From Candidatus Moraniibacteriota bacterium (lineage in GTDB: Bacteria; Patescibacteriota; Minisyncoccia; Moranbacterales; UBA1568): 34,589 bases of DNA. Within the stretch, counting starts at the first letter, position 1, and every line of letters begins with the position of its first letter. Shown piece after piece: positions 32,466-33,492 of this stretch. The stretch is taken from the NCBI GenBank assembly GCA_008012175.1, contig SSEF01000027.1, positions 1-34,589 of the forward strand, written 5' to 3'. Position numbers and translations under genes: made by a program. Below the pieces are notes generated by a model that saw nothing but the letters and a program-made list of their open reading frames with translations, did not search any database and was not told the DNA's origin.

Positions 32466-32558
32466 TGATTTTCTCCATCAAAAACAATATGGCCCGAAAC
32501 TGGAAACTGATCAACACGTGGGACTGGATGGATTCGAACCATCGACCAACAGGTTATG

Positions 32559-33173
32559 CTTCTCACTATTGCTTTCGCAACTCTTTCGATTTGTGAGCTG
32601 GACTATCCCTTCACCCCACGAGAGGGGGGCCTGCCGTCTAGTCTCTACACCTTCCTCGAACATTCGAGGCTTGGCTCGGGATTGTCCTGCGATTGAAGGA
32701 TTCAACCGTTTAGATTTCCCCGAATTTGACAAGTTATCATTCAAGAATTGCTCCTTGAACAGCCCTGCTTGTCCATATAAATCATGTTATCATTCGGTTA
32801 TGAATAAATCCATAACCTGCGTCGTGTGTGCACGCCTGCTATCCGGAAAACAAAGTCTGTACTGTTCGGTTTTTTGTAAAAACCAAGTCCATCAATCCTA
32901 CGCTGCGCAACAAGAACGCGGCTGGGCAAGAAAGAAGGAACTCGTGGAACGAATGGGCGGTGAATGTTCAGCATGCGGTTACAAAAAGAATTTGTCCGCA
33001 CTCGCGTTTCACCACGCTGATCCAGAACAGAAAAACTTTCAATTGGATATCCGATCTCTCTCCAATCGGAGGTCGTCTCAGATCGAGAGAGAAATTCGGA
33101 AGTGCACCCTGCTCTGCAACAACTGCCATGCAGAGCTCCACAATCCAAAACACAACTTATGAAAGGACACTTG
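32559..33173 (-). mobile_element. Group I self-splicing intron in the tRNA anticodon loop
   Basis: 5' exon ends in U and intron ends in G. Core motifs on the minus strand: P TCAAATTCGGGGAAATCTAA, Q GACAATCCCGAGCCAAGCC, R GGTGTAGAGACTAGACGG, S AAGGGATAGTCC; P7 pairing GACTA/TAGTC. Confidence 0.9.
32800..33162 (+). CDS. HNH endonuclease encoded antisense within the group I intron
   Basis: CVVCARLLSGKQSLYCSVFCKN zinc-ribbon-like part, then ECSACGYKKNLSALAFHHADPEQKNF ... EREIRKCTLLCNNCHAELHNP canonical HNH. Confidence 0.9.
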   Translation: MNKSITCVVCARLLSGKQSLYCSVFCKNQVHQSYAAQQERGWARKKELVERMGGECSACGYKKNLSALAFHHADPEQKNFQLDIRSLSNRRSSQIEREIRKCTLLCNNCHAELHNPKHNL

Positions 33174-33231
33174 AGCCCGCTGCTCTAACCGCTGAGCTAC
33201 AGTCCCTGTAGCCACATAGGGAATGACCCTG

Positions 33232-33438: not shown

Positions 33439-33492
33439 ATACACCCAGTCTACCAAAATAAAAAGGGCTTTTGAGGGCCCTCTTCATTTTTG

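Follow-up and report, generated by a model that had tools for sequence, protein, structure and literature searches.

The window analyzed here is a stretch of 34,589 nt from a Candidatus Moraniibacteriota bacterium, which carries on its minus strand a tRNA(CAU) gene interrupted between U33 and C34 by an intron of 615 nt (32559–33173). The 5′ exon, corresponding to tRNA nucleotides 1–33, lies at 33174–33206 and the 3′ exon, starting at C34 (CATAACC...), at 32518–32558. These boundaries follow from the two exon halves, which, once joined, give a tRNA whose anticodon CAU stands in the loop CU-CAU-AA, and from relatives that possess uninterrupted copies of the same tRNA(CAU). The last nucleotide of the intron is a G, and its ribozyme region (32577–32790, minus strand) matches the full Rfam model Intron_gpI (RF00028, positions 1–253) with 55.7 bits for a gathering score of 50, the scores reaching 88 bits in relatives. 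Based on these sequence features, the interruption is a group I intron, presumed to be self-splicing at U33/C34. Insertion after the anticodon (the Azoarcus position) was ruled out for the window, because U33/C34 is the only junction at which the exons fit together, and the internal guide sequence agrees with that site. The labels Leu, Gln and Thr that Aragorn gave to intron-bearing tRNAs resulted from misplaced introns and were overridden by exon rejoining. The source genome (1.02 Mb, 95% complete) possesses separate and intact initiator and elongator tRNA-Met(CAU) genes elsewhere, which rules out both as hosts of the intron and, by elimination, designates the split gene as tRNA-Ile2(CAU).

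Inside the intron, a gene encoding a 120-amino-acid HNH endonuclease (32800–33162, plus strand) runs antisense to the tRNA and the ribozyme. A previous sequence-only reading had placed the HNH frame on the plus strand, opposite the tRNA and the intron core, with its stop about 11 nt from the 5′ splice site; the minus-strand Rfam match and the intron 5′ end at 33173, exactly 11 nt from the end of the stop codon, agree with both statements. The ORF is intact and the protein retains every HNH and zinc residue, an N-terminal zinc motif (C7, C10, C22, C26) being followed by the HNH nuclease domain. By profile it belongs to the same family as the HNH endonucleases of PHROG 2255 (E-value 7.5e-20), which are phage proteins without known intron context, whereas the window protein sits in an intron; taken alone, it stays under the cut-off of Pfam PF01844 (15.3 versus 21.4 bits). 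The protein was modeled by AlphaFold with a mean pLDDT of 92.6; a fold search returned no significant PDB match, and the sequence profile weakly matches the nicking endonuclease 9qgx (E-value 0.001). As many as 27 residues, including the key Cys, His and Asn, are invariant among 43 HNH sequences, free-standing forms included. Across 29 intact copies, the antisense frame has a mean pN/pS of 0.35 (synonymous sites being near saturation) and entropies of 0.86, 0.66 and 1.46 at the three codon positions, and it is the sole frame of six that is open in 29/29. No sense-strand frame stays open across these homologues, which rules out a hidden sense-strand gene. These values point to selection on the plus-strand frame, for which the earlier reading had named dN/dS as a check, and indicate that the antisense HNH frame is a real gene under purifying selection. 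At two other loci (L050, 1501–1914; L053, 1501–1902), the HNH frames extend across the intron boundary, and the strand opposite the tRNA 5′ exon there encodes C-terminal peptides like EPTALTAEL.

The family sample combines the hits of a scan over GTDB and viral contigs with seven homologues, close and full-length, from relatives. We found 33 distinct loci, related to each other and hence not to be counted as independent events, with an HNH gene inside and antisense to an intron of 594–696 nt between U33 and C34 of tRNA(CAU). Their hosts are Moranbacteria, Peregrinibacteria, Gracilibacteria, Saccharibacteria, Anaerolineae and other Chloroflexota, and Acidobacteriota, together with two phage contigs (L079 and L086). 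The arrangement that the earlier reading had described from the window, and had proposed to look for in the tRNA(CAU) introns of related genomes, is thus found in all 33, with no sense HNH gene at the U33/C34 site among them, unlike the usual layout of intron ORFs on the sense strand. That reading had also considered what would speak against it, namely a conserved frame on the sense strand or many frameshifted copies; the close homologues proved to be antisense, and most frames are intact, the broken ones being confined to L045, L072 and L076. In a second set, referred to as group B, 11 gammaproteobacterial loci carry an ORF-less intron of ~235–270 nt after U36 of tRNA(CAU), that is, at the Azoarcus-type post-anticodon position and unlike the window, and their HNH gene is free-standing, antisense and 54–240 nt upstream of the intron-bearing tRNA(CAU). 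The only reversal among close relatives comes from Flaviaesturariibacter flavus (Bacteroidota; L068, 1403–2187), where the HNH gene is sense inside a post-U36 type tRNA(CAU) intron. The relatives in phages lie free-standing within tRNA arrays, most of them in antisense orientation to the tRNAs; in L082 and L084 the gene stands beside an intronless tRNA(CAU). These configurations cluster strongly in the protein tree (8 label changes versus 31.6 when shuffled), which has few well-supported deep forks. A second, more distant HNH family occurs in tRNA introns (probably tRNA-Asn) of related Patescibacteria and is always sense, in 17 loci; the sense HNH loci L010, L011, L013–L022 and L024–L028 form a natural contrast to the antisense family.

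The internal guide sequence (GGGCTGT, 32759–32765, minus strand) forms P1 with the end of the 5′ exon, including a U33·G pair, and lies ~400 nt downstream of the 5′ splice site, which places the HNH gene inside the P1 loop. The earlier suggestion that the ORF fills the P1–P2 region can be refined: the gene occupies the P1 loop, with the 5′ splice site on one side and the guide sequence on the other. P1 of the window has only 4 pairs. Over the family, the U33·G and C32–G pairs are present in 33/33 introns, and the guide sequence covaries with tRNA position 31 (G31–C in 27, A31–U in 6), GGGC always occurring with G31 and GGGU always with A31. Above P1, an extension made of two helices around a CUAAG/UAUG internal loop closes off the HNH gene. 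In the window, the 5′ strand of the extension helix (GUCC, 33165–33168, minus strand) lies below a degenerate tetraloop-receptor-like loop and its 3′ strand (GGAC, 32771–32774, minus strand) within the antisense promoter region. The 11-nt tetraloop receptor (CCUAAG/UAUGG), degenerate in the window, is clear and canonical in the acidobacterial and phage members, and a terminal hairpin (GUUGC-GAAA-GCAAU, 32568–32581, minus strand) conserved in alignment A2 is a possible partner that may dock into it. The extension helices covary, own arms giving 11.2 of 13 pairs versus 8.8 for swapped arms, with 0 of 2000 permutations as good; pairs were counted on anchored segments with a control that re-optimized the register, the MAFFT alignment A3 having misplaced some P1-arm helices. 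Three ORF-less introns at the same site (L203, L179 and L183) retain the extension, closed by a short loop. The covariation shows a conserved P1 extension that loops the HNH gene out of the ribozyme.

The sequence-only reading had implied a promoter of its own for the antisense gene, and a −10 box (TATCAT, 32788–32793, plus strand), preceded by TGT as in an extended −10, is indeed present 6 nt before the ATG. It is conserved in all 25 core loci, defined as group A (HNH inside the intron) minus the acidobacterial and phage members and L046: each has a TATAAT-like hexamer (at least 4 of 6 matches, for a background of 6%) at exactly this spacing, with 5 matches in 13 loci and 6 in 8. The acidobacterial and phage members and the chloroflexotal L046 have no clear −10 box at the 6-nt spacing. 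Good −35 boxes exist in part of the family (TTGACA, 6/6, in L045, L047 and L055); that of the window is poor and a promoter tool returned no full sigma70 site there, so that the claim for the window relies on the conserved −10 of its relatives and on its own extended −10. A −10 box 6 nt away should place the transcription start on the A of the ATG itself and yield a leaderless mRNA. The spacer of this promoter is at the same time the 3′ strand of the P1 extension. Taken together, these features suggest that the HNH gene probably has a private antisense promoter folded into the ribozyme sequence and a leaderless mRNA. Downstream, the antisense transcript would run across the tRNA 5′ half, and perhaps across tRNA-Phe and tRNA-Val too; a terminator-like site at 33464–33481 (plus strand) is within chance expectation.

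Overlapping the start codon is an inverted repeat, TTATGA-N6-CCATAA (32798–32815, plus strand), a putative operator mimicking the homing site. In 13/13 Moranbacteria/Peregrinibacteria-type loci, the motif TTATGA-N6-TCATAA (at least 11 of 12 matches) overlaps the start codon at one and the same position; in 6 of the 10 scorable group B loci it lies in noncoding DNA upstream of the HNH gene (at least 10 of 12), and phage L082 has it (11/12) upstream of its free-standing HNH gene. The background is 0.25% of windows, and a gap of 6 is the best among gaps of 0–14. Its TCATAA half-site corresponds exactly to U33–A38, the anticodon loop of the target tRNA, and the next base tends to follow the local target: 21 C and 3 T where the target has C39, 4 C and 11 T where it has T39 (Fisher p=0.0003, relatedness being ignored). 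At L057 the repeat matches its own target over 11 nt. The motif is absent from the acidobacterial and most chloroflexotal members, from L086 and from the three ORF-less introns. In I-TevI autorepression, the operator at the promoter resembles the homing site (PMC2988022), and the same resemblance is seen here in the Moranbacteria/Peregrinibacteria-type loci, most of group B and L082; I-TevI differs in being a sense GIY-YIG gene, the putative operator described here being a palindrome of two anticodon-loop half-sites that overlaps the start codon. The analogy suggests an I-TevI-like autorepression of the HNH gene, which we put forward as a working hypothesis, since the discovery of the motif and its scoring drew on overlapping data.

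The distribution of the intron is that of a mobile element. Antisense HNH genes occur sporadically, in 8 of 187 relatives, and relatives with a conserved Leu(gag)-Val(tac)-Phe(gaa)-CAU-Gly(gcc) cluster have an uninterrupted tRNA(CAU), that is, an empty orthologous site. Among the ORF-less introns, L183 still contains sequence similar to the 3′ end of the HNH gene and has the appearance of a product of deletion. Introns with an intact HNH gene, a broken one or a deleted one, together with the empty sites, fit the stages of a homing cycle. Both intron positions, U33/C34 and after U36, split TCATAA, and a carrier would be immune for this reason. The initiator tRNA gene of the same genome (L104, contig C26) contains the 11-nt core GGCTCATAACC, identical to that of the insertion site; the specificity of the enzyme must therefore extend further, as otherwise the initiator gene would be cut. 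We thus propose the following scheme. RNA polymerase would start at or beside the ATG and produce a leaderless antisense mRNA independently of tRNA transcription; the HNH protein would nick or cut intronless tRNA(CAU) genes near the TCATAA of the anticodon loop; recombination would then copy the intron with its HNH gene into the cut tRNA gene; and excess protein would turn the gene off by binding the inverted repeat of TCATAA located at its promoter and start codon. The arrangement probably originated from a free-standing HNH gene that already lay backwards beside its tRNA target and was later captured in the P1 loop. As a whole, we consider it quite likely that the locus is a mobile tRNA-Ile2(CAU) group I intron with an antisense HNH gene in its P1 loop acting as homing endonuclease, and the intron probably spreads with the help of this gene. 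A wider proposal, plausible though we would give it a little under an even chance, is that bacteria and phages share a family of antisense homing genes specialized on tRNA(CAU), with a promoter spacer serving as P1-extension strand, a leaderless start, self-repression through the palindrome and free-standing source forms.

Three other explanations were weighed. Chance antisense ORFs are common, and the frame could be one that happens to be open opposite a structured intron; the 50–64% protein identity, the pN/pS value, the invariant HNH and zinc residues, the stops in the other frames, the free-standing phage homologues and the confident structural model contradict this reading and make it extremely improbable. 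The free-standing relatives in phage tRNA arrays and beside intron-bearing tRNAs, like the ORF-less introns at the same site, would also suit a passive hitch-hiker, a selfish gene lodged in the P1 loop that moves by itself, plays no role in intron mobility and may cut elsewhere. However, this HNH clade is strictly paired with tRNA(CAU) across phyla, the TCATAA motif is split by both intron sites and, as every group A HNH gene lies inside the intron, any homing of the gene would take the intron along, so that we regard a mere passenger as rather improbable.

The remaining alternative accepts an antisense homing gene and concerns the repeat, which would be a hairpin of the P1-loop sense RNA or a by-product of the Ile-Thr-Cys codons and the start context. 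Its outer pairs compensate within group A, the three deviations reading as G·U on the sense RNA, part of it pairs with the HNP codons in cofolding, and the ITC residues are invariant in alignment A1; part of the repeat could thus be kept by sense-RNA pairing or by these residues. Against this, Gammaproteobacteria and phage L082 have the repeat, again with a gap of 6 nt, upstream of their free-standing HNH genes, in DNA that is noncoding and not part of any intron; moreover, its flank tracks the local homing site, and it is missing from the three ORF-less introns. We consider this alternative unlikely, albeit the most serious of the three, and retain the operator as the preferred reading.

Homing genes antisense to group I introns have been reported from eukaryotic nuclear rDNA (PMC3679873, PMC9548176), as the sequence-only reading had stated. 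Apart from the family described here, the open-access literature records them solely from nuclear rRNA introns of fungi and protists. Didymium Dir.S956-2 and Dsq.L2066 (His-Cys, nuclear rDNA; PMC9548176, PMC3679873) are comparable: the homing gene lies antisense to its group I ribozyme within a peripheral loop and is presumed to have a promoter of its own. The Didymium genes combine nuclear rRNA, His-Cys enzymes, spliceosomal introns and polyadenylation, whereas the present family involves bacterial and phage tRNA genes, HNH enzymes and a predicted leaderless sigma70-like promoter; an HNH protein in a bacterial tRNA gene thus falls outside the His-Cys box/nuclear rRNA class. The word "antisense" does not appear in a 2014 review of bacterial group I introns (PMC3984707), and our search of the open-access literature on CPR tRNA introns found nothing relevant. 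According to that review, the phage introns known by 2014 were all in protein genes, with which the tRNA introns of L079 and L086 contrast. The phage contig L086 (IMGVR_UViG_3300035037_000204) carries group I introns in three tRNA genes (373–643, 1037–1808 and 1822–2233), labeled Arg, Met(CAT) and Leu. Collaborative homing by free-standing endonucleases, as for F-CphI of the cyanophage psbA, is discussed in PMC3984707 and PMC6083498. The 11 group B loci resemble it in having a free-standing nuclease gene adjoining an intron-bearing target, and differ in their target tRNA(CAU), their zinc-HNH family and their antisense orientation.

I-Ssp6803I is likewise an endonuclease encoded in an intron, that of a cyanobacterial tRNA-fMet gene, and directed at the CAU anticodon region, but it is a PD-(D/E)XK enzyme in a different tRNA, not an HNH protein. 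It was reportedly described by Bonocora and Shub in 2001, a work cited in PMC3984707. We take it to be encoded on the sense strand. The Azoarcus-type tRNA-Ile(CAU) introns interrupt the same tRNA as the window intron. We take the Azoarcus intron to be inserted after U36, as in gammaproteobacterial group B, and presumably ORF-less, unlike the window-type intron at U33/C34 with its antisense HNH gene.

Antisense expression in eukaryotic rDNA is explained by separate polymerases in separate compartments. The layout described here concerns a tRNA gene and is conserved in several phyla of bacteria, which rely on a single polymerase, as well as in phages; it forms a compact system with a ribozyme helix on one DNA strand and a predicted promoter and gene on the other. 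A series of states is visible, from free-standing nuclease, adjacent intron and merged element to decayed ORF, deleted ORF and empty site, which bears on how mobile introns are assembled and lost. Introns in tRNA-Phe are common in the order of the source genome, and one or more matches to group I introns occur in 57 of 115 relatives; in genome G033, the neighboring tRNA-Phe also carries a group I intron (L006/L037, 1923–2237).
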